A DNA stretch of 64,000 nucleotides from Marichromatium purpuratum 984 (GTDB taxonomy: Bacteria > Pseudomonadota > Gammaproteobacteria > Chromatiales > Chromatiaceae). Positions 8,691 through 36,342 of the stretch are shown piece by piece. The translations under genes and the position numbers were made by a program. Numbering within the stretch: the stretch's first letter is position 1; the number at the start of each line of letters is the position of its first letter. The notes under the pieces are model-generated. The model was not told the DNA's origin, searched no databases, and worked only from the letters and a program-made list of their open reading frames with translations. The stretch spans positions 3,129,001 to 3,193,000 of the forward strand of contig NZ_CP007031.1 in NCBI RefSeq assembly GCF_000224005.2, written 5' to 3'.

Positions 8691-9182
8691 ATGCAACAGG
8701 TCAAGAACATCGTGATCGCCGGACTCGGCGGCCAGGGGGTCATCAAGGCCTCCGACATCCTCGCCGACGCGGCCTTCCGCGCCGGTTTCGACGTCAAGAA
8801 GAGCGAGCTGCACGGCATGAGCCAGCGTGGCGGCTCGGTGAGCAGCGACGTGCGCTACGGCACCGATGTGCTCAGCCCGATGGTGCCGCCCGGCGAGGCC
8901 GACGTGCTGCTGGTGCTCGAGGCCACCCAGGTCGAGATCAACCGCCCCACGCTGCGTGCCGGCGGACTGCTGATCGGCCCGGATGTCATCGAGCCCGGCG
9001 CGCTGCGCAACCGTAAGAGCCTCAACGTCGCCCTGCTCGGTGCACTCTCCACCGCGCTGGAGATCGATCTGGGGCACTGGGAGGCGGCGCTCCACGCCAA
9101 CCTCGCCGAAAAGCTCCACGCCATCAACGAGCAGGCCTTCGCGCTCGGGCGCGAGGGCGCAACACGCCACCTCGGTCAGTAA
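8691..9182 (+). CDS. iorB: Indolepyruvate oxidoreductase beta subunit
   Basis: This 163-aa gamma-type 2-oxoacid oxidoreductase subunit begins NIVIAGLGGQGVIKASDILA and contains the conserved KSELHGMSQRGGSVSSDVRYG motif, followed by DVLLVLEATQ. It pairs with IorA to form the CoA-acylating oxidoreductase. The gene starts 94 nt after iorA, and the gap contains a GC-rich inverted repeat. At 163 aa it is shorter than many IorB proteins (about 190-200 aa) because the C-terminal helix is trimmed. Neighbouring ligase and ACT genes support an aromatic 2-oxoacid role. Confidence 0.9.
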   Translation: MQQVKNIVIAGLGGQGVIKASDILADAAFRAGFDVKKSELHGMSQRGGSVSSDVRYGTDVLSPMVPPGEADVLLVLEATQVEINRPTLRAGGLLIGPDVIEPGALRNRKSLNVALLGALSTALEIDLGHWEAALHANLAEKLHAINEQAFALGREGATRHLGQ

Positions 9183-9283
9183 CGATCGGCAGGGGCGCGG
9201 CGCGCCCCGTCATCCGCCAGCCAGAGCGGATCGGTCCGGGCATGCCCCCGGTCGACCCAGATCAAGCGATCAAGAGGACATCC

Positions 9284-10618
9284 ATGTTTAAAGAGCTTTG
9301 GAACGACGCCGCCGGAGGCTTCCACCCCGCAAGCGCCCCCGACTATCTGCCCGAGCAAGCACTGCGCGAGGTACAGCTGCGCCGACTGCGCGCCGTGGTC
9401 GAGCACGCCTACAAGAACGTGGCGCTGTTCCGCAGTCGGATGGAAGAGCGGGGCCTCACCCCGGAATCGGTCCAGAGCCTCGCAGACATCGCCAAGCTGC
9501 CCTTCACCGTCAAGGCCGACCTGCGCGACACCTACCCCTCGGGACTGTTCGCCGTACCCATGGGCGACGTGGTGCGGCTGCACGCCTCCTCCGGCACCAC
9601 CGGCAAGCCGATCGTGGTCGGCTACACCCGCGAGGACATCCAGGTGTGGTCGGAGGTGATGGCCCGCGCACTGGCCTGCTACGGCCTGCACCGCGGCGAC
9701 ATCGTCCAGAACGCCTTCGGCTACGGGCTGTTCACCGGCGGGCTCGGCGTGCACTATGGCGCCGAGACCCTGGGCGCGACCGTGGTGCCGATCTCCGGCG
9801 GCAACACCGACCGCCAGCTGATGGTGATCCGTGACTTCGGTGTCTCGGCGCTGTGCTGCACCCCGAGCTACTTCGCCCACATGCTCGAGCGCGCCGAGGA
9901 ACTCGGTGTCGATCTCCCGGCCTCGTCGCTGCGCGTCGGCGTGTTCGGCGCCGAGCCCTGGAGCGACGCGATGCGCCGTCACATCGAGGAGGCCGCCGGG
10001 ATCCGCGCCTACGACATCTACGGGCTCTCCGAGATCGTCGGCCCTGGGGTGGGCTGCGAGTGCACCGAGCAGCACGGGCTGCACCTCTTCGAGGATCACT
10101 TCTATCCCGAGATCATCGATCCCGAGAGCGGCGAGCCGCTGCCCGACGGCGAAGAGGGCGAGCTGGTCATCACCACGCTGAGCAAGCGGGCGATGCCGAT
10201 GATCCGCTACCGTACCCGCGACATCACCTCGATCATTCCCGAGCCCTGTGCCTGTGGTCGCACCCTGCGACGGATGCGTCGCATCGAGCGCCGCTCCGAC
10301 GACATGTTCATCATCCGCGGCGTCAACGTCTTCCCCTCGCAGGTCGAGGCCGCGCTGCTCGCCGTCGAGGGCACCCTGCCGCACTACCAGATCATCCTCA
10401 CCCGCGATCACGGCCTCGATCAGATCACCGTCGAGGTCGAGGTCACCGCCGAGGTGTTCAGCGACAAGGTGCGTGCGCTCGAGGAGGTACGCGCCCGGCT
10501 GGCGCAGTCGATCGAGCGCATCATCGGCATCCGTGTCATGCTCCGTCTGGTCGAGCCGCGCACCATCGAGCGCAGCCAGGGCAAGACCAAGCGCGTGATC
10601 GATCGCCGCCACGACTGA
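9284..10618 (+). CDS. paaK: Phenylacetate--CoA ligase (first copy)
   Basis: The 444-aa AMP-forming ligase activates aryl-acetates with ATP and CoA. Visible landmarks are HASSGTTGKPIVVGYT (P-loop), YDIYGLSEIVGPGVG, MIRYRTRDITSII and the C-terminal DDMFIIRGVNVFPSQVE block, all diagnostic of the PaaK family. A terminal Lys-rich QGKTKRVIDRR supplies the A10-type lysine region. ATG 9284 has AAGAGGA 5 nt upstream, so I prefer it over 9242. It lies between iorB and a double-ACT gene, a grouping known from aryl-pyruvate metabolism gene clusters. Confidence 0.92.
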   Translation: MFKELWNDAAGGFHPASAPDYLPEQALREVQLRRLRAVVEHAYKNVALFRSRMEERGLTPESVQSLADIAKLPFTVKADLRDTYPSGLFAVPMGDVVRLHASSGTTGKPIVVGYTREDIQVWSEVMARALACYGLHRGDIVQNAFGYGLFTGGLGVHYGAETLGATVVPISGGNTDRQLMVIRDFGVSALCCTPSYFAHMLERAEELGVDLPASSLRVGVFGAEPWSDAMRRHIEEAAGIRAYDIYGLSEIVGPGVGCECTEQHGLHLFEDHFYPEIIDPESGEPLPDGEEGELVITTLSKRAMPMIRYRTRDITSIIPEPCACGRTLRRMRRIERRSDDMFIIRGVNVFPSQVEAALLAVEGTLPHYQIILTRDHGLDQITVEVEVTAEVFSDKVRALEEVRARLAQSIERIIGIRVMLRLVEPRTIERSQGKTKRVIDRRHD

Positions 10619-10674
10619 GCGGCCCCGTCGTCGGCGACGACGGCCAGGAAGATGCACAAAGGGGAGTCGAACCC

Positions 10675-11112
10675 ATGAAACTGCAACAACTGTCACTCTT
10701 TCTCGAGAACCGCCCCGGCCAGCTCGGGGCGCCGCTGGAGGCGATCGCGGCCGAGGACATCAATATCCTCACCCTGTCGCTCGCCGACACCGCCCAGTTC
10801 GGCATCCTGCGCCTGATCGTGCGCGAGTGGGAGCAGGCCAAGCAGATCTTCGAGCAAGGCGGCTGGGTGGTGAAGCAGACCGAGGTGGTCGCCGTCGACG
10901 TGCTCGACCGCCCGGGCGGCCTGGCCGGCGCGCTGGCGGTGCTCGAGGCCGCCGAACTCAACATCGAGTACATGTACGCCTTCTCGCTGCGCCGCGACGA
11001 CAAGGCGATCCTGATCTTCCGTTTCGAGGACCCCGACCGCGCCATCGAAGTCCTGCTCGAGCACGGGCTGCACGTGGTCGAGGCCGAGGAACTGATGCGT
11101 CACGTCGGCTGA
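10675..11112 (+). CDS. Tandem ACT-domain protein, aromatic amino acid-linked
   Basis: The protein is 145 aa, with two ACT domains: residues about 1-68 (LQQLSLFLENRPGQLGAPLE) and about 70-142 (VVAVDVLDRPGGLAGALAVLE). ACT pairs bind amino acids and usually act as small-molecule sensors. Stand-alone double-ACT genes recur beside phenylacetate-CoA ligases and indolepyruvate oxidoreductases, so regulation by an aromatic amino acid is a reasonable inference. AAAGGGGAG lies a few nt upstream of the start. It sits between the two paaK copies. Confidence 0.88.
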   Translation: MKLQQLSLFLENRPGQLGAPLEAIAAEDINILTLSLADTAQFGILRLIVREWEQAKQIFEQGGWVVKQTEVVAVDVLDRPGGLAGALAVLEAAELNIEYMYAFSLRRDDKAILIFRFEDPDRAIEVLLEHGLHVVEAEELMRHVG

Positions 11113-11129
11113 CGCCAACCACAGACCCC

Positions 11130-12473
11130 ATGCCAATGTCCAACCAAGACCCCGACTGGTCGAGCGAGAACCGTATCTGGAACCGCAGCGCCGAGACCCT
11201 CCCGCGCGAGGAGATCGCGGCGCTGCAACTCGAACGACTGCGCGCCATGGTCGAGCGCGTGGCCCAGGTGCCCTTCTACCGCGATCAGTTCAAGCACGCC
11301 GAGATCGGCCCGCAGAGCATCCGCTCGCTGGACGATCTGCGGCGCCTGCCCTTCACCACCAAGGACGACCTGCGCCGTCACCAGCCGCTCGGCTTCCTCG
11401 CCGTGCCGCGCAAGGAACTGGCGCGCATCCACGGCTCCTCGGGCACCACCGGCGTGCCCACCTTCGTCGCCTACACCGCGCAGGACCTGCGCACCTGGTC
11501 GGAGCTGTGCGCGCGCTTCCTCGTCGCCGGCGGACTGCGCCCGGCGCACACCGCCCAGGTCGCCTTCGGCTATGGCCTGTTCACCGGTGGCTTCGGCCTG
11601 CACTACGGCATCGAGCGGGTCGGCGCGGCGGTGATCCCGGCGGCGGCGGGCAACACCCGACGCCAGATCGACATCATGCGCGAACTCACCCCAGAGGTGC
11701 TGATCTGCACCCCGAGCTACGCGCTGACCATCGCCGATAGCGCGCGCGAACTCGGCATGGATCCAGCCACCCTGCCGATGCGTTACGGTCATTTCGGCGG
11801 CGAGCCCTGGACCGAGGACATGCGTCGCGAGATCGAGGACCAGCTCGGGCTGCAGGCGTTCAACAACTATGGACTCTCGGAGGTGTTCGGACCCGGGGTC
11901 GCCGGCGAGTGTCCGCTGCACGACGGCATGCACATCCAGGAGGACCACTTCATCGTCGAGTGTCTCGACCCCGAGACCCTGGAGCCGGTCGCCGAGGGCG
12001 AGCCAGGCGAGCTGGTGATCACCAACCTCACCCGCGAGGCCACGCCGCTGATCCGCTACCGCACCCGCGACATCGCTCGGCTCTATCGCGAGCCCTGTGC
12101 CTGCGGCCGCACCACCATGCGGATGAGCCGGGTGACCGGACGCACCGACGACATGCTGATCATCCGCGGCGTCAACGTCTTCCCCTCGCAGATCGAGGAG
12201 GCGCTGTTGCGCGTCGAGGGCACCACCCCGCACTATCTGATCGAGGTCGACCGCCCGGGCACCCTCGACGAGGTCCACGTCAAGGTCGAGATGCGCCCGG
12301 AGATCTTCTCCGATCGCATGGACCGGATGCAGGGACTGTGCGAGCACATCAGCCGCGAGATCCAGACCGTCGCCGGCATCCGTGCTCATGTCGACCTGGT
12401 CGAGCCGAGATCGATCGAGCGTTTCGTCGGCAAGGCCCGGCGCGTACTCGACAAGCGCCGGCTCAACGACTGA
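11130..12473 (+). CDS. paaK: Phenylacetate--CoA ligase (second copy)
   Basis: This 447-aa protein is a paralogue of the gene at 9284 with the same landmarks: HGSSGTTGVPTFVAYT, FNNYGLSEVFGPGVAGE, LIRYRTRDIARLYREPCACG, DDMLIIRGVNVFPSQIEE and terminal GKARRVLDKRR. The start is either ATG 11130 or ATG 11136 (MSNQDPDW), with no strong ribosome site; it begins 18 nt after the ACT gene, suggesting coupling. Two non-identical ligases in one operon suggest different aryl-acid preferences, for example phenylacetate versus indoleacetate, but the sequence does not show which. Confidence 0.92.
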   Translation: MPMSNQDPDWSSENRIWNRSAETLPREEIAALQLERLRAMVERVAQVPFYRDQFKHAEIGPQSIRSLDDLRRLPFTTKDDLRRHQPLGFLAVPRKELARIHGSSGTTGVPTFVAYTAQDLRTWSELCARFLVAGGLRPAHTAQVAFGYGLFTGGFGLHYGIERVGAAVIPAAAGNTRRQIDIMRELTPEVLICTPSYALTIADSARELGMDPATLPMRYGHFGGEPWTEDMRREIEDQLGLQAFNNYGLSEVFGPGVAGECPLHDGMHIQEDHFIVECLDPETLEPVAEGEPGELVITNLTREATPLIRYRTRDIARLYREPCACGRTTMRMSRVTGRTDDMLIIRGVNVFPSQIEEALLRVEGTTPHYLIEVDRPGTLDEVHVKVEMRPEIFSDRMDRMQGLCEHISREIQTVAGIRAHVDLVEPRSIERFVGKARRVLDKRRLND

Positions 12474-29168: not shown

Positions 29169-29585
29169 AGGGTTGCGAGTCCAACGAGGCCGCTTGCGGT
29201 GCCCTGGCACCAGCATGCACGGTACGTTCGGCATGGCCCGTCCAGACCGACGACCGCCGCTCCGTTGCACTCGAGAGTTGAGAGGGCGGGCCTCGATCCA
29301 GCAACATCGAAGTACGGAGACGAGCCCGCGCATTGCGCCTTGGTTTGGTTTCCGTCGAAACACCTGATTTCGGCAGCGAGCATCGCGCATCCGAGCCCAA
29401 CTTGTCACCCCCCGCGTGCGCGCGCAGGGCGACCCAGGGTCCTCGAAGCGTGGCAAACGGGCTTCAACGCCCGGGGTGCCGGGAGGCTTGTGATTCATTT
29501 GGGATCTCGTTCGGTGAGCCTGCCACTGCGGCCCTGACGTGGAACCTGCTAAACGCACCCATAGGCAGTGGAGGGTCTGGTCGCC
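29169..29585 (+). other. 417-nt leader region upstream of ppsR
   Basis: No convincing gene is seen; in particular no B12-binding aerR-like frame is present next to ppsR. The region contains a short palindrome GGTGCC-ct-GGCACC (29198-29211). GGAGGG at 29570-29575 could be the ppsR ribosome site. Confidence 0.45.
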
Positions 29586-31016
29586 GTGAGTCCGTTCAGA
29601 GACCCAAGGGAATCCCTGGGCGTCCTCAACGCCGAAACAGCGGCGCTGTTAATCGAAGGCACAGCGGACATCGCCATCGTGATCGACGACCAAGGCGTAG
29701 TGAGCGATATTGCGTACGGGAGCGACGATCTCTCCTCGGAGTTCAGCGACGAGTGGATCGGCCAGCCGTGGCTGGCGACCGTCATCCCGGAGAGCCGCCC
29801 CAACCTCGAGGCGCTGCTCGCCGAGGCCGAGCACGACGCCATCACCCACTGGCGCCAGGTCACCCACCCCACCGCGCGAGGCACCGACATCCCGGTGCAA
29901 TACCGCGCGATGCGGCTCGGTGAGGACGGCTCGGTGGTGGCGCTCGGGCGCAACCTCCAGGGCATCGCCGCATTGCAGCAGCAACTGGTCGACGCCCAGC
30001 AGGCGCTCGAGCGCGACTACTGGCGCTTCCGTCAGGTCGAGACCCGCTATCGGTTGCTGTTCCGCATGGTCTCCGAGGCCATCCTCATCATCGACGCACC
30101 GACCCAGCGCGTGGTCGAGGCCAACCCGGCGTCGGGACAGCTGCTCGGCGAGGCGCCCGCACGGGTGATCGGCCGCCCCTTCCCCGAGGGCTTCGACGCC
30201 GACAGCACCCAGGCGATCAACGGCCTGCTCGCCGGCGTGCGCGCCGCCGGGCGCGCCGACGACGTGCGCGCCCGACTGCTCGACAGCGGTCAGGAGTTCC
30301 TCGTCTCGGCCTCGCTGTTGCGCCAGGAGAACGTCTCCTTCCTGCTCGTCAGGCTCTCGCCACTGCCCGCCGACAACTCGACGACCGCTCACCCGGAGGC
30401 CGGCGCGCGTTATCTGCGCGTGCTCGAGAACGCCCCCGACTGCGTGGTCATCACCGATGGCGACGGTCGCGTGCTCACCGCCAACGGCACCTTCCTCAAT
30501 CTCGCCGAGGTGGCCACCGAGCAGCAGGCCCGCGGCGAGTCGCTCGACCGCTGGCTGGGTCGTCCCGGGGTCGACCTCAACGTGCTGATGGCCAACCTGC
30601 GCCAGCACGGCACGGTGCGGCTGTTCGCCACCACCCTGTGCGGCGAATACGGCTCGACCACCGATGTCGAGATCTCGGCGGCGGCCATCCGCAACGGCGA
30701 GCGTCCCTATTTCGGCTTCTTCATCCGCGACGTCGGCCGCCGGCTCGGCGCCGAACCGGCGCCCACGCCGGAACAGCCGCGTTGGCTCGAGCAGCTCACC
30801 GAACGTGTCGGCCGGGTACCGCTCAAGGAGCTGGTGCGCGAGTCGACCGATACCATCGAGCGACTCTGCATCGAGGCCGCGCTCAAGCTGACCGGCGACA
30901 ATCGCGCCTCGGCCGCCGAGCTGCTCGGCTTGAGCCGCCAGAGCCTGTACGTCAAAATCGACCGCTACGGCATCACCGACCAAGCGTCCGAGGCCACGGC
31001 GCCGGACAAGAAATAG
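29586..31016 (+). CDS. ppsR: Photosynthesis gene repressor PpsR/CrtJ
   Basis: The protein is 476 aa. An N-terminal PAS-like domain (ADIAIVIDDQGVVSDIAYG), a coiled Q-linker (QQLVDAQQALERDYWRFRQ), two further PAS domains and a FIS-type helix-turn-helix (ASAAELLGLSRQSLYVKIDR) give the PpsR architecture. A cysteine lies in IERLCIEAALKLTGDN, at the place of the redox-active C-terminal cysteine of CrtJ/PpsR. It represses bch, crt and puc genes under oxidising conditions. GTG 29586 is preferred because GGAGGG lies 10 nt upstream; GTG 29568 is the alternative. bchG and bchP follow. Confidence 0.93.
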   Translation: MSPFRDPRESLGVLNAETAALLIEGTADIAIVIDDQGVVSDIAYGSDDLSSEFSDEWIGQPWLATVIPESRPNLEALLAEAEHDAITHWRQVTHPTARGTDIPVQYRAMRLGEDGSVVALGRNLQGIAALQQQLVDAQQALERDYWRFRQVETRYRLLFRMVSEAILIIDAPTQRVVEANPASGQLLGEAPARVIGRPFPEGFDADSTQAINGLLAGVRAAGRADDVRARLLDSGQEFLVSASLLRQENVSFLLVRLSPLPADNSTTAHPEAGARYLRVLENAPDCVVITDGDGRVLTANGTFLNLAEVATEQQARGESLDRWLGRPGVDLNVLMANLRQHGTVRLFATTLCGEYGSTTDVEISAAAIRNGERPYFGFFIRDVGRRLGAEPAPTPEQPRWLEQLTERVGRVPLKELVRESTDTIERLCIEAALKLTGDNRASAAELLGLSRQSLYVKIDRYGITDQASEATAPDKK

Positions 31017-31206: not shown

Positions 31207-32112
31207 ATGAATCAATCGACGCTGTCCGCCACCCCCAAGCGCCCCGCCTTGCCCGCGGTACTCGAGGTCCTCCACCCCATCACCTGGTTCCCGCCGATGT
31301 GGGCCTTCGCCTGCGGCGTGGTCTCCTCCGGCGCGCCGATCCTCGATCAGTTGCTGGTGGTGTTCGCCGGTATCCTGCTCGCCGGGCCATTGATGTGCGG
31401 TACCAGCCAGGTGGTCAACGACTGGTACGATCGTCATGTCGATGCCATCAACGAGCCCGACCGTCCCATCCCCTCCGGTCGCATTCCCGGCAACTGGGGC
31501 TTCTATCTGTCGTTGATCTGGACCGCCGTCTCGTTGCTGCTGGCCTACGCGCTCGGCCCCTGGGTATTCGGTGCCTCGCTGCTCGGCATGGCCCTGGCCT
31601 GGGCCTACAGCGCCCCGCCCTTCCGCCTCAAGGGTAACGGCTGGTGGGGCAACCTCGCCGTCGGCATCTCCTACGAGGGGCTGGCCTGGGTGACCGGCGC
31701 GGCGGTGATGATCGGCGGCGCCATGCCCGACTGGCAGATCCTCGTACTCGCCCTGCTCTACAGCATCGGCGCCCACGGCATCATGACCCTCAACGACTTC
31801 AAGGCGATCGAGGGCGACATCAAGATGAACGTACGCACCCTGCCGGTGCAGCTCGGTGTCGATCGCGCCGCGCGCCTCGCCTGCCTGGTGATGGGCCTGC
31901 CGCAAGCAATCGTGATCGCGCTGCTGTTCTCCTGGGACAAGCCCGCGCACGCCATCGCCGTCGGCGTGGTACTGCTGGTCCAGGTGGGCTTGATGATCCG
32001 CTTCCTCGGCGACCCGCGCGCCCGCGCCACCTGGTTCAGTGGACTCGGCGTCAGTGTCTATGTCACCGGAATGATGATCAGCGCCTTCGCGGTGCGGGCA
32101 CTGGCCGGCTGA
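31207..32112 (+). CDS. bchG: Bacteriochlorophyll synthase (geranylgeranyl transferase)
   Basis: This 301-aa UbiA-family polytopic prenyltransferase has the Mg-diphosphate motif NDWYDRHVDAINEPDRP near residue 75 and a second Asp motif in TLNDFKAIEGDIKMN. It esterifies bacteriochlorophyllide a with geranylgeranyl diphosphate in the membrane. Length is normal. It lies 190 nt after ppsR, and bchP follows 99 nt downstream, the common bchG-bchP pairing. Confidence 0.96.
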   Translation: MNQSTLSATPKRPALPAVLEVLHPITWFPPMWAFACGVVSSGAPILDQLLVVFAGILLAGPLMCGTSQVVNDWYDRHVDAINEPDRPIPSGRIPGNWGFYLSLIWTAVSLLLAYALGPWVFGASLLGMALAWAYSAPPFRLKGNGWWGNLAVGISYEGLAWVTGAAVMIGGAMPDWQILVLALLYSIGAHGIMTLNDFKAIEGDIKMNVRTLPVQLGVDRAARLACLVMGLPQAIVIALLFSWDKPAHAIAVGVVLLVQVGLMIRFLGDPRARATWFSGLGVSVYVTGMMISAFAVRALAG

Positions 32113-32211: not shown

Positions 32212-33402
32212 ATGACTGAGCTCGAAACCTTCGACGTGGTGGTGATCGGCGGCGGCCCCGCCGGCGCCACCGCCGCCACCGACCTGGCCAAGCGTGGCCG
32301 TTCCGTGCTGCTGCTCGACCGCCCCGGACGGATCAAGCCCTGCGGCGGCGCCATCCCGCCGCAGGCGATGCGTGAATTCGACATCCCCGAGGCACAGCTG
32401 GCCACCCGGGTCTACTCGGCACGCATGGTCGCACCCTCCAACCGCACCGTCGACATGCCGATCGACGGCGGCTATGTCGGCATGGTCGACCGCAAGGACT
32501 TCGACGAGTGGCTGCGCGAGCGTGCCGCCGAGCACGGCGCCACCCGGCTCGACGCCACCTTCGAGACCATCGAGCGCGACGCTGACGGCACCGCCCTGGT
32601 GCGCTACCGCCCCGGTCAGGGCCGCGATTCGGGCGAGCCACTGCAGGTGCGTGCGCGCGCGGTGATCGGCGCCGACGGCGCCCACTCGGCGGTGGCCAAG
32701 CAGTGCGTGCCCGGCGCCGAGAAGATGAAGTATGTCGCCGCCTATCACGAGATCGTGCGCACCCCGGAGGGCTTCGACGGCACCCGCTGCGACGTCTACT
32801 ACCAGGGCGACATCTCGCCCGACTTCTACGGTTGGGTGTTCCCCCACGGCGACACCATCAGCGTCGGCGTCGGCACCGAGATCAGCGGCTTCTCGCTGCG
32901 CTCGGCCTGCACCGAGCTGCGCAAGCGCGCCGGACTGGCCGAGGTCGAGACGCTGCGCTGCGAGGGCGCGCCGATCCCGCTCGAGCCGCTACGCTGCTGG
33001 GACAACGGTCGTGACGTGGTGCTCGCCGGCGATGCTGCGGGTGTGGTCGCGCCGGCCTCCGGCGAGGGCATCTACTACGCCCTGCTCGGCGGACGCCTGG
33101 CCGGCGAAGCGGTCGAGGAGATGCTGGCTACCGGCAAGGCCTCGGCGCTCAAGCTCGCGCGCAAGCGCTTCATAAAGGATCACGGCCGGGTGTTCTGGAT
33201 CCTCGGCATCATGCAGCGCTTCTGGTATGCCAACGACAAACGCCGGGAGCGCTTCGTCAGCATCTGCGCCGACCCCGATGTGCAGTACCTGACCTGGGAG
33301 GCGTACATGAACAAGCGCCTGGTGCGCGCCAAGCCGACGGCGCACATCCGTATCTTCTTCAAGGATCTCGCCCACCTGCTCGGCGTCGTCTCGCCGCGCT
33401 GA
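32212..33402 (+). CDS. bchP: Geranylgeranyl reductase
   Basis: This 396-aa flavoprotein has an N-terminal dinucleotide-binding VVIGGGPAGATAATDLAKRG followed by RIKPCGGAIPPQAM. Further on are the FAD contacts VLAGDAAGVVAPASGEGIYYAL. It reduces three double bonds of the geranylgeranyl tail to phytyl on bacteriochlorophyll. The C-terminal text FLGI-like WILGIMQRFWYANDKRRERF and YLTWEAYMNKRLV is family-typical. It ends the plus-strand ppsR-bchG-bchP run. Confidence 0.96.
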   Translation: MTELETFDVVVIGGGPAGATAATDLAKRGRSVLLLDRPGRIKPCGGAIPPQAMREFDIPEAQLATRVYSARMVAPSNRTVDMPIDGGYVGMVDRKDFDEWLRERAAEHGATRLDATFETIERDADGTALVRYRPGQGRDSGEPLQVRARAVIGADGAHSAVAKQCVPGAEKMKYVAAYHEIVRTPEGFDGTRCDVYYQGDISPDFYGWVFPHGDTISVGVGTEISGFSLRSACTELRKRAGLAEVETLRCEGAPIPLEPLRCWDNGRDVVLAGDAAGVVAPASGEGIYYALLGGRLAGEAVEEMLATGKASALKLARKRFIKDHGRVFWILGIMQRFWYANDKRRERFVSICADPDVQYLTWEAYMNKRLVRAKPTAHIRIFFKDLAHLLGVVSPR

Positions 33403-33422
33403 GCAAGGAGCCGAACGCCCTT

Positions 33423-33455
33423 CCCTTCGGGCGCTGTACACCAGCACCCGAAGGG
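33423..33455 (+). terminator. Hairpin terminator after bchP
   Basis: CCCTTCGGGCGCTG-tacac-CAGCACCCGAAGGG forms a 14-bp stem with one mismatch, 20 nt beyond the bchP stop. There is no long T-run, so it may be weak. It probably ends the ppsR-bchG-bchP transcript and could also act on the opposing strand. Confidence 0.65.
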
Positions 33456-33694
33456 CTCCTCGACTCGATCCCGAGAGCTGTCGCACGCGCGACACTCGCG
33501 CACATCGATCGCAGGCTCGGCAAGGGACTGCCGGCGGCGGGGACGATCGGCCTTCCATGCTCCATGGACCTTTCAACGCTCGGCGCCGCGCGCGACCTTG
33601 ACTGGCGCTTGACGAACGCGCGTCCGAACGACCGCACCACGGCTCACCTGTACGACCCGATGCCGGCGCGATCATTGAAGCATCAGCCCGCAGC

Positions 33695-35875
33695 TCAGTG
33701 GCGCGGCGCCCCATTAGCCTCGTCGCCCCCCTCGCAGCCCTGGCGCTGGGCGGCATACCACAACAGCCGCTCGAGCAGTGTGGTGGTGTGACTCACCGAG
33801 TGCTCGAAACCCTCGAACACCGCCGGCACACGCTCCAGGTCGACCCCGTCGGCCACCTCCTCGGCGGCCAGCCGGGCGTTGCCGATGATCGCGGCGAACA
33901 GTTCACGATAACGCTCGCCGTCACCGCCGCACAGTGGCGTGCTGACATGGTATTGGTGCGCGGCGATCCCGGCATGGAGACGCTGACGGGCATCCTCGGC
34001 GGCCTTGATGTCGGTGAGGTCGGTGAACAGGAACATGAAGCCGAGCACCCGGCCCGGCGCCGAAAACACCGGATCAGCGCGCAGCAACACCGGGGTCTCG
34101 CGCCCATCGGCGCCACACACCTCGAACTCGGCCTGCCAGGGCCGGTAGTCGTCGCGCAGCGCGGCCAAGGCGGCACGTACCGTTGCGGGATCGCTCACCA
34201 ATCCGGGCAGCGCATCAAGGGACTCCAGGCGCCCGGCCCCGAACAGCTGCTCGAGCGAACGCGTGGCCAGCACCAGCCGCCCCTCGGGATCGGTGATCAG
34301 CATCGGCTGATCGGAGATCCGTACCCGCGCCTGGGCCTCGGCGAGCTGCGCCTGGGCGATCAACAGTCGGACCGAGCGGAACTGCTGGAGCACATCGGTC
34401 ACCGATTCACCGAGCAGTCGAGCGATGGCCGTCTGCCCCGAGTTCCAGGGTACCGCCCGACCACGTACCTCGCGCTGCTCACCGGCGAGCGCCGGGGCGC
34501 GGTTGAGTTCGGCGCCGTCGGCACAGAGCAGCGGGCTGGCGCCGAGGATCAGGGTCCGTACCCGCTCGGGACGAAACCACACCAGATACTCGCCGCAGCC
34601 ACTCGACAGCGGCACCGCCAGCACTCCGCTGGCGGTCTCCCTGAGCGCGGCGAAGCGCGGGTCCTCGCGCATCAGCGATGAGGTGGCGATCACCGCCGCG
34701 CGCGGCTGGCGGTCGAGCCAGGCACGGACACGCAACAACCCTCTCTGCTCCGGGACCCGGCCAAGGGTCTGCAGCTCACCGTCACAGAACAGCGCCGCCC
34801 CGCTCGCCTCGAGGCTCGCGAGCAGGGCATCGGCGTCGCTGACCAGCGCCGAGCGCCAGTCGCCGCTACGCGAGATCGCCTCGATCATCCCCTGCTCGAG
34901 CCGTCGCACCGCCAGCTCGGCCTGCTCCTGGATGAAACTCTCCAGCGCCGCAATACGCGTGGCCACGGTCTCGGCGAGCAGCTCGCAGAGGGCGCGGATC
35001 TCGTAGTGGACGAAGCGGGGCGTGCGATGATGACAGGCGATCAGCCCCCACAGCCGTCCGCCCACGATCAGGGAGACGACCAGGGTGGCGCGCACGTCCA
35101 TCATCTTGAGGATCTGGATGTGCAACGGCGAGACACTGCGCAGGGTGCACAACGACATATCGAGCGGCTCGCCGAGAGGATGCATCGGCTGCAACGGCAC
35201 CGGCACGCTGTCGACATCGACCAGCAGCCGCACCCGTGGGCGACGCCCCGGCTGGCGCGCCATCCGCGGCACGCAGGCCTCGGGATAACACTGGCCGAGA
35301 TAGGCCGGCAGCGCCGGTTCGCGCGCCTCGGCGAAGACCTCGCCGTGACCGGCCTCGTCGAGGCGGTAGAGCATCACCCGGTCGTAGCCGGTGAGCTGCT
35401 TGAGGGTCGCGACGACCTCCTCGCCAAGCGCCCGGACCGAGGGCGCGGCGATGATCCGCTGCAGCGCCTCCTCGACCCGCCCGGAGAGTTCGAGCGATGG
35501 CCCGGCGGGCTCGAGTTCGAGCACCAACAGGCCGCTGCCCGAGCGATGCACCAGCACGTCGAACTCGGTCGCCCCGACACCCAGGCGACAGCGCAGCGCC
35601 AGGGCCACCGGATTGAGGGGCGCGTCCAGATGAGGGCGCAACCGCTGTACCAGATCCTCTCCCAGCCAATCGAGCCGGTGCCCGGGCAGCGCATCGTCCA
35701 GCCCCAGCATCCGCCGCGCATTGGTGCTCGCTTGCAGGATCTCGAGATCCCGTTCGCGCACGCTGATCAGGGCACCATGGGGCTGGATGGTCTGGATCGA
35801 ATGCAGTGATTCGGGATCACGACCCTCAGACCCGGCGATCGTGAACCTGGTCAAGGCGGAGAAACTGACACTCAC
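33695..35875 (-). CDS. Degenerate bacteriophytochrome-like protein (PAS2-GAF-PHY-PAS), no chromophore cysteine
   Basis: The protein is 726 aa. A PAS2 domain (SIQTIQPHGALI), a GAF domain (residues ~150-300: YDRVMLYRLDEAGHGEVFAEA, LRSVSPLHIQ, LWGLIACHH), a PHY domain with a WFRPERV tongue, a C-terminal PAS (LFTDLTDIKAAEDARQRLHA) and an ~80-residue helical tail can be seen. There is no histidine kinase. The biliverdin Cys before IQPHG is Arg19. The PASDIP motif is PEACVP, with Asp replaced by Cys201, and the pocket Tyr is Gly210. The plant-type GAF Cys is Leu251. Pocket His252 and ACHH remain. GTG 35875 has GGAGG 10 nt upstream; ATG 35932 is the alternative. It lies next to the ppsR run. Confidence 0.88.
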   Translation of the reverse strand: MSVSFSALTRFTIAGSEGRDPESLHSIQTIQPHGALISVRERDLEILQASTNARRMLGLDDALPGHRLDWLGEDLVQRLRPHLDAPLNPVALALRCRLGVGATEFDVLVHRSGSGLLVLELEPAGPSLELSGRVEEALQRIIAAPSVRALGEEVVATLKQLTGYDRVMLYRLDEAGHGEVFAEAREPALPAYLGQCYPEACVPRMARQPGRRPRVRLLVDVDSVPVPLQPMHPLGEPLDMSLCTLRSVSPLHIQILKMMDVRATLVVSLIVGGRLWGLIACHHRTPRFVHYEIRALCELLAETVATRIAALESFIQEQAELAVRRLEQGMIEAISRSGDWRSALVSDADALLASLEASGAALFCDGELQTLGRVPEQRGLLRVRAWLDRQPRAAVIATSSLMREDPRFAALRETASGVLAVPLSSGCGEYLVWFRPERVRTLILGASPLLCADGAELNRAPALAGEQREVRGRAVPWNSGQTAIARLLGESVTDVLQQFRSVRLLIAQAQLAEAQARVRISDQPMLITDPEGRLVLATRSLEQLFGAGRLESLDALPGLVSDPATVRAALAALRDDYRPWQAEFEVCGADGRETPVLLRADPVFSAPGRVLGFMFLFTDLTDIKAAEDARQRLHAGIAAHQYHVSTPLCGGDGERYRELFAAIIGNARLAAEEVADGVDLERVPAVFEGFEHSVSHTTTLLERLLWYAAQRQGCEGGDEANGAPRH

Positions 35876-36159
35876 AGACGGTAAACCTCCGTGCTCGGCT
35901 CCTGCCCGCAGCCACAGGCTGTGGGACAGCACCTGCAGGCGATGCGGGACTGGGCGGGCGCGCCACAGCCCCGAGCATCCGCCCGATGTCGGCGCCGACG
36001 AGGCGCGATCGGGATTCGCGACCGAGCGCCGAGGGGCGACAAGAGCGCCTCGGACCCGGACATCTCAGACGATGGTACGTGAGCGACTCCAGGCATACCA
36101 GCCGGAGCACGGTCGACGTGACCCTCGGTCGCGCCTGAGTTACCATAATCGACTGGCTT

Positions 36160-36236
36160 GCCCTCGTAGCTCAGCTGGATAGAGCAATCGCCTCCTAAGC
36201 GATAGGTCACAGGTTCGAATCCTGTCGAGGGCACCA
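36160..36236 (+). tRNA. tRNA-Arg (anticodon CCU)
   Basis: This 77-nt sequence folds as a cloverleaf: acceptor GCCCTCG/CGAGGGC, D-arm GCTC...GAGC, anticodon stem ATCGC/GCGAT with loop CTCCTAA (anticodon CCT), and T-arm ACAGG-TTCGAAT-CCTGT. The CCA end is encoded. It reads AGG codons. It lies between the phytochrome-like gene and coaX. Confidence 0.97.
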
Positions 36237-36342
36237 TCTCCCAGGCACGAAACATCTCGCCAGCATCCAGTATACCAACCCCCGCTGCCGCCCCCGGTCG
36301 CGCGCCGTGCCGCTTGTGCGCACCAGCCGCCACGCCCGGCGG

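Follow-up and report, generated by a model that had tools for sequence, protein, structure and literature searches.

The bphP1-type gene of Marichromatium encodes a phytochrome whose core has been kept by selection after the pigment site, the tongue and the dedicated partner gene were lost. Since selection is as strict as in working receptors despite the loss of pocket and partner, the protein has probably gained a light-independent role in the control of photosynthesis. Phytochromes are studied as photoreceptors, and this locus allows a direct test of how the phytochrome scaffold functions without light. The gene lies in a window of 64,000 nucleotides (the whole stretch of DNA that was analysed) from the complete, 3.78-Mb genome of Marichromatium purpuratum 984. 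Three species of the genus with the gene were sampled, the other two being Marichromatium gracile DSM 203 (95% identity of the ortholog) and M. bheemlicum DSM 18632 (85%).

An ortholog of Rhodopseudomonas BphP1

The frame runs on the minus strand from a GTG at 35875-35873 to a stop at 33695-33697 and codes for 726 amino acids. The original prediction had these coordinates right, and its PAS2-GAF-PHY-PAS layout without a kinase matches the Pfam domain calls (PAS_2 22-124, GAF 150-308, PHY 324-498, PAS 521-619); no kinase domain was found in the protein by Pfam search.

33695..35875, minus strand: gene of bphP1 type lacking the chromophore pocket, 726 aa, start codon GTG
35504..35812, minus strand: PAS2 domain, residues 22-124 (Pfam PF08446)
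34952..35428, minus strand: GAF domain, residues 150-308 (Pfam PF01590)
34382..34906, minus strand: PHY domain, residues 324-498 (Pfam PF00360)
34019..34315, minus strand: PAS9 output domain, residues 521-619 (Pfam PF00989/PF13426)
33740..34000, minus strand: HOS-like two-helix tail, about residues 626-712 (alignment and AlphaFold2 model)

The C-terminal ~90 residues can be aligned with the tail of the Chromatiaceae orthologs, and AlphaFold2 models them as a pair of long helices, which is what an HOS module would look like. The PAS2-GAF-PHY-PAS9-HOS architecture of BphP1-type (type 3) bacteriophytochromes, which lacks a kinase, is present. The best match among PDB sequences is RpBphP1 (4gw9, 574 bits, residues 14-626), the next PDB phytochrome that is neither RpBphP1 nor derived from it reaching 255 bits, and an RpBphP1 structure is also the top fold match of the AlphaFold2 model. 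By sequence and fold, the Marichromatium protein is an ortholog of Rhodopseudomonas BphP1. Its score with NCBIfam NF041576 (bacteriophytochrome BphP equivalog) is 247.5 bits, below the curated cut-off of 1040 bits.

Loss of the photoswitch residues

The protein was aligned with RpBphP1 and with 20 Chromatiaceae orthologs that have a canonical pocket; 171 columns are invariant in all of these references. The Marichromatium proteins keep 82% of the invariant columns in GAF and 77% in PHY, and the losses concentrate on residues of the photoswitch, which were located by the alignment:

35819..35821, minus strand: Arg19 replacing the biliverdin-binding Cys (RpBphP1 Cys20)
35246..35290, minus strand: pocket loop C196-YPEA-C201...G210 with Arg196->Cys, Asp201->Cys and Tyr210->Gly
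35111..35113, minus strand: Ile255 replacing the pocket Tyr257 (RpBphP1 numbering)
34595-34597, minus strand: new Cys427, slightly upstream of the tongue
34469..34555, minus strand: PHY tongue, residues 441-469, with the PRxSF motif gone and a new Cys451

Further changes of the photoswitch relative to the canonical sequences are Ile202->Val and Asn260->Met. In the tongue, PRxSF (RpBphP1 465-469) is replaced by R459 A460 P461 A462 L463 in M. purpuratum, and Trp446, Pro465, Arg466, Ser468, Phe469 and Trp472 are lost in Marichromatium. Kept are Arg216, Arg246, Ser249, His252, His283 and both His of the ACHH motif; Arg216 and Arg246 presumably form the propionate side of the pocket. All pocket and tongue losses are common to M. 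purpuratum, M. gracile and M. bheemlicum, which rules out a sequencing error.

The alignment bears out what had been read from the M. purpuratum gene alone, that is, the loss of the N-terminal Cys (Arg19), Cys201 and Gly210 as well as the retained His252 and ACHH. Going by the aligned sequences, the replacement by Ile255 and the loss of the PRxSF motif are additions to that list. Leu251, which had been taken for a lost GAF Cys, has to be struck from it, as the canonical orthologs have Ile at this position (RpBphP1 Ile253); a GAF Cys is not known to play a part in BphPs. The pocket loop (200-210) and the tongue (441-469) are modelled by AlphaFold2 with low confidence, which was also considered as a sign of loss, but a canonical control (G081) with the same alignment has similarly low confidence at 190-201 and 435-467, so that the confidence is no evidence of pocket loss.

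Selection on the gene

Pairwise ω from a codon model (GY94, F3x4, custom script) is 0.049 for bphP of M. purpuratum and M. gracile, 0.078 for M. purpuratum and M. bheemlicum and 0.081 for M. gracile and M. bheemlicum, and the likelihood-ratio statistic against ω=1 is 281-424 for the three pairs. Five within-genus pairs of canonical, presumably photoactive orthologs gave 0.065-0.117; the Marichromatium gene is constrained about as strongly as these. In the Marichromatium pairs, ω of the GAF domain (0.025-0.057) is at or near the lowest among the domains. Neither of the two signs of decay named in the original prediction, a dN/dS near 1 and random loss of the frame in close relatives, was seen: the frame is intact in all three species, and the ω of 0.05-0.08 with the likelihood-ratio statistic of 281-424 refutes neutral decay. 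The output parts PAS9 and HOS are intact; 77-85% of the invariant HOS positions are kept in Marichromatium versus 23-31% in g22, a genus with a pocket-less BphP1. Retention of HOS could, however, reflect dimerisation only.

Neighbourhood and loss of ppsR2

29568..31016, plus strand: ppsR (PpsR1 type, HTH Cys434), the sole PpsR in the genome (TIGR02040, 539 bits)
31207..32112, plus strand: bchG (profile match)
32212..33402, plus strand: bchP, convergent with bphP and 292 nt from it
35876..36342, no strand: gap of 467 nt, the place of ppsR2 in canonical relatives, here with tRNA-Arg and intergenic DNA
35886..35890, minus strand: Shine-Dalgarno-like GGAGG of bphP, within GAGCACGGAGGTTTACCGTCTGTGAGTGTCAGT, identical in three species
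36073..36100, no strand: conserved dyad (three Marichromatium species) TGGTA-N18-TACCA, located between tRNA-Arg and bphP

The distance of 292 nt to bchP (gap 33403-33694) had been given correctly, and the two genes are convergent. The bphP slot beside bchP is ancestral, and therefore closeness to bchP is no evidence of function. In this part of the family, most canonical relatives have the gene order ppsR1-bchG-bchP / bphP1-ppsR2 / coaX-birA, in which ppsR2, about 40% identical to ppsR1, immediately precedes bphP1 in the same orientation. The ppsR2-bphP1 pair of G081 (L047, L110) is found about 55 kb from the bch cluster; related genomes have the pair beside bchP.

The HTH residue is Cys in 19/19 PpsR1 and Tyr in 22/22 PpsR2 proteins. 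This split matches the division reported for R. palustris (PMC6899989): its PpsR1 is the redox form, and BphP1 pairs with wild-type PpsR2, the non-redox form under light control. The ppsR2 gene that adjoins bphP in canonical relatives is missing in Marichromatium: the genome of M. purpuratum has one PpsR match, of type 1, and a search of the 467-nt gap revealed no convincing ppsR2 relic, the lowest E among the matches listed being 0.009 at 26% identity on the wrong strand. Because ppsR2 stands beside canonical bphP1 and is gone here, the ppsR of the window is not the inherited partner of the phytochrome. The proposed pairing with PpsR thus holds as far as the protein is a kinase-less, PpsR-type phytochrome, but its partner by orthology is PpsR2 and not the ppsR of the window; with ppsR2 lost, binding to the remaining PpsR would mean that the partner was switched. 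PpsR1 gives no sign of an altered selective regime in Marichromatium (ω 0.017-0.020). The surviving PpsR has a Cys358 in the second PAS region that is fixed in Marichromatium and is Arg in 16 other PpsR1 proteins. PpaA/AerR was rejected as an alternative partner, as ppaA is reported to be absent from Chromatiaceae (PMC8877833); B12-binding matches are present in the M. purpuratum genome.

No PpsR sites (TGTN12ACA) were found upstream of bphP. A 16-nt block at the dyad, CTCACGTACCATCGTC, is identical in the three Marichromatium species, and the dyad may belong to either bphP or the tRNA gene. It occurs a single time in the genome and was dismissed as a regulon site.

Pocket loss in other Chromatiaceae

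BphP1 is present in 27 of the 210 Chromatiaceae genomes; most are without it. Pocket-less BphP1 proteins are also encoded in the genera g22 (G146, G202, G203) and g43 (G120), in the same gene slot, and have Glu201/Ile210 (g22) or Ala201/Ser210 (g43) as replacements. The tongue is lost in both and deleted in G120, and ppsR2 is gone in G146 and G202 but still found in G203 and G120. All degenerate sequences form one group in the BphP gene tree (90/94, with a long-branch warning), a group that falls apart once the pocket and tongue columns are removed. In a species tree from BchN, BchF, PpsR1, BchG and BchP, the canonical genus g8 is placed with g22 and g43 (97/98), and Marichromatium stands apart. 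A single origin of the pocket loss was therefore rejected: among purple sulfur bacteria the pocket was lost at least two times independently, in separate lineages. The locus thus comes with natural comparisons, namely canonical bphP1 with ppsR2, pocket-less bphP1 with ppsR2 (G203, G120) and pocket-less bphP1 without ppsR2 (Marichromatium, G146, G202).

Damaged reading frames were seen among the other genes of the family. The canonical bphP1 of G116 (L063, about 8985-11278, minus strand) is broken near residue 110-127 into two frames and resembles the bphP1 of R. palustris CGA009, for which a frameshift is reported (PMC6899989). The bphP1 of G173 (L060, 1864-4074, minus strand) is interrupted by a single in-frame TAG close to the beginning of PHY, which could be an assembly error in an incomplete draft genome.

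Possible function of the pocket-less phytochrome

The ancestral state would have been a far-red receptor encoded by a ppsR2-bphP1 operon. In the lineage of Marichromatium the light arm was then dismantled: the gene of the dedicated non-redox repressor, ppsR2, was lost, and the phytochrome, as its sequence shows, lost the chromophore Cys, the pocket Asp/Tyr and the bilin-reading PRxSF tongue. The apoprotein has not decayed, with purifying selection like that on the presumably photoactive orthologs and with intact PAS9 and HOS. Its most likely role would be that of a light-independent protein partner, which may be fixed in the PpsR-binding state, or close to it, or be tuned by a signal other than light; the target would be the redox-type PpsR1 of the bacteriochlorophyll cluster, and it is tempting to speculate that a thiol signal via C196, C201, C427 and C451 is the input. 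Formation of the BphP1-PpsR2 complex of R. palustris requires HOS, and Pfr, a state that depends on the chromophore, is inert there (PMC6899989). A protein without chromophore has no way of being fixed in Pfr, so that one may reasonably guess at binding that is constitutive or gated in some other way. That it acts on the surviving PpsR is plausible, and we give the explanation as a whole, a light-independent partner acting on PpsR1, about an even chance. To be counted against it would be the loss of the dedicated partner, the unchanged regime of PpsR1 and the lack of BphP1 in most Chromatiaceae.

Five Cys residues (196, 201, 427, 451, 649) occur in Marichromatium alone and are fixed there. Four of them are in the pocket loop or the tongue, that is, 4 of 17 unique residues there versus 1 of 57 elsewhere (Fisher P=0.009), in regions that were chosen after the data had been seen. 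Cys196 and Cys201 of the loop and Cys427 and Cys451 of the tongue might form a disulfide under oxidising conditions, which would replace the contact of Asp201 with the tongue, move the PHY/PAS9/HOS output and report the redox state to PpsR. A precedent in the literature is a phytochrome that was reportedly turned into a redox sensor (Vuillet 2007, by its title, cited in PMC6879726), and PpsR1 likewise gained Cys358 in Marichromatium. However, the total gain of Cys is not significant compared with other lineages (Fisher P=0.25), Cys201 is found only in Marichromatium, the other pocket-less lineages having Glu or Ala, and the low AlphaFold2 confidence of loop and tongue, also in the canonical control, means that distances cannot be judged. 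The conservation of Cys201, which had been suggested as a check, was confirmed in the three species but is hardly informative, given that GAF sequences within the genus are 90-98% identical. These observations lend the redox idea for Cys201 weak support, and we consider such a thiol switch doubtful. It is also only tentatively that we propose a bilin photoswitch core rewired in place to a thiol or ligand switch. Within such a core, replacement of the Asp-PRxSF contact by the Cys gained in GAF loop and tongue and delivery of redox or tetrapyrrole state to a PpsR that was not originally served are, taken jointly, conceivable at best.

M. purpuratum and M. gracile have a canonical second phytochrome of 521 aa beside a heme oxygenase gene. 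In M. purpuratum (L071, 6686-8251, plus strand) it consists of PAS-GAF-PHY without an output domain and is divergent from the heme oxygenase gene; the heme oxygenase of M. gracile matches only residues 1-169 of 219. In M. bheemlicum neither a heme oxygenase (profile and protein search of a draft genome that is about 99% complete) nor a second phytochrome was found, and bphP is nonetheless intact and constrained. This species, which may have a divergent biliverdin-making enzyme, is an additional natural comparison.

Since Arg216, Arg246, His252 and His283 remain, some tetrapyrrole might still bind non-covalently. The cradle of these residues could thus take up a bilin or an intermediate of bacteriochlorophyll or heme, with occupancy instead of photochemistry as the signal. 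The strong constraint on GAF (ω 0.025-0.057), the kept Arg pair and both His, the restriction of the losses to the Cys, the Asp/Tyr cluster and the tongue, and the position within the bch cluster would agree with such a sensor. But the constraint on GAF may be structural, the gene slot is ancestral and, as no heme oxygenase was found in M. bheemlicum, the ligand is probably not biliverdin there; altogether we regard it as unlikely. A weak or locked photoreceptor that binds biliverdin loosely is very unlikely: M. purpuratum and M. gracile do have the heme oxygenase gene beside their second phytochrome, but Cys, Asp, two Tyr and PRxSF are all lost and in M. bheemlicum, where no heme oxygenase was found, the gene persists and is similarly constrained. 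That the gene was silenced recently and is being lost is hardly credible, for although g22 (HOS) and G120 (tongue deletion) are decayed further, canonical G116 has a split frame and most Chromatiaceae are without the gene, Marichromatium has intact frames in three species, an identical start and Shine-Dalgarno region and an ω far below 1.

Comparison with known systems

We found no paper in the literature on light-blind phytochromes of Marichromatium; a precedent for a phytochrome without chromophore is known, RpBphP4. Among the closest known systems is RpBphP1 of Rhodopseudomonas palustris (PDB 4gw9, 5oy5), a far-red anti-repressor of PpsR2, which has the same domain order, no kinase, a sequence match of 574 bits and the best fold match, and whose Chromatiaceae orthologs adjoin a ppsR2 of the non-redox type. 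In contrast to RpBphP1, the Marichromatium protein is without the biliverdin Cys, the DIP Asp, Tyr210/Tyr257 and PRxSF, and the genome is without ppsR2. The degenerate BphP1 proteins of g22 and g43 share the slot and the loss of pocket and tongue, and G146 and G202 also the loss of ppsR2, but they differ in the residues at 201 and 210, HOS is decayed in g22, and ppsR2 is present in G203 and G120.

RpBphP4 is reportedly a histidine kinase with a response regulator. The reported loss of its chromophore and its light-independent role in a purple bacterium resemble what is proposed for Marichromatium, whose protein, however, is a kinase-less type-3 phytochrome in which a kinase output has no Pfam match; the redox property is that of RpBphP4. 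RpBphP2 and RpBphP3, which we take to keep the chromophore site, differ from the Marichromatium protein, in which the site itself is lost. Apo-RpBphP2/RpBphP3 are reported to be needed in low-light signalling, and the sensing of light quality to be dispensable (Fixen 2014, as described in PMC6879726).
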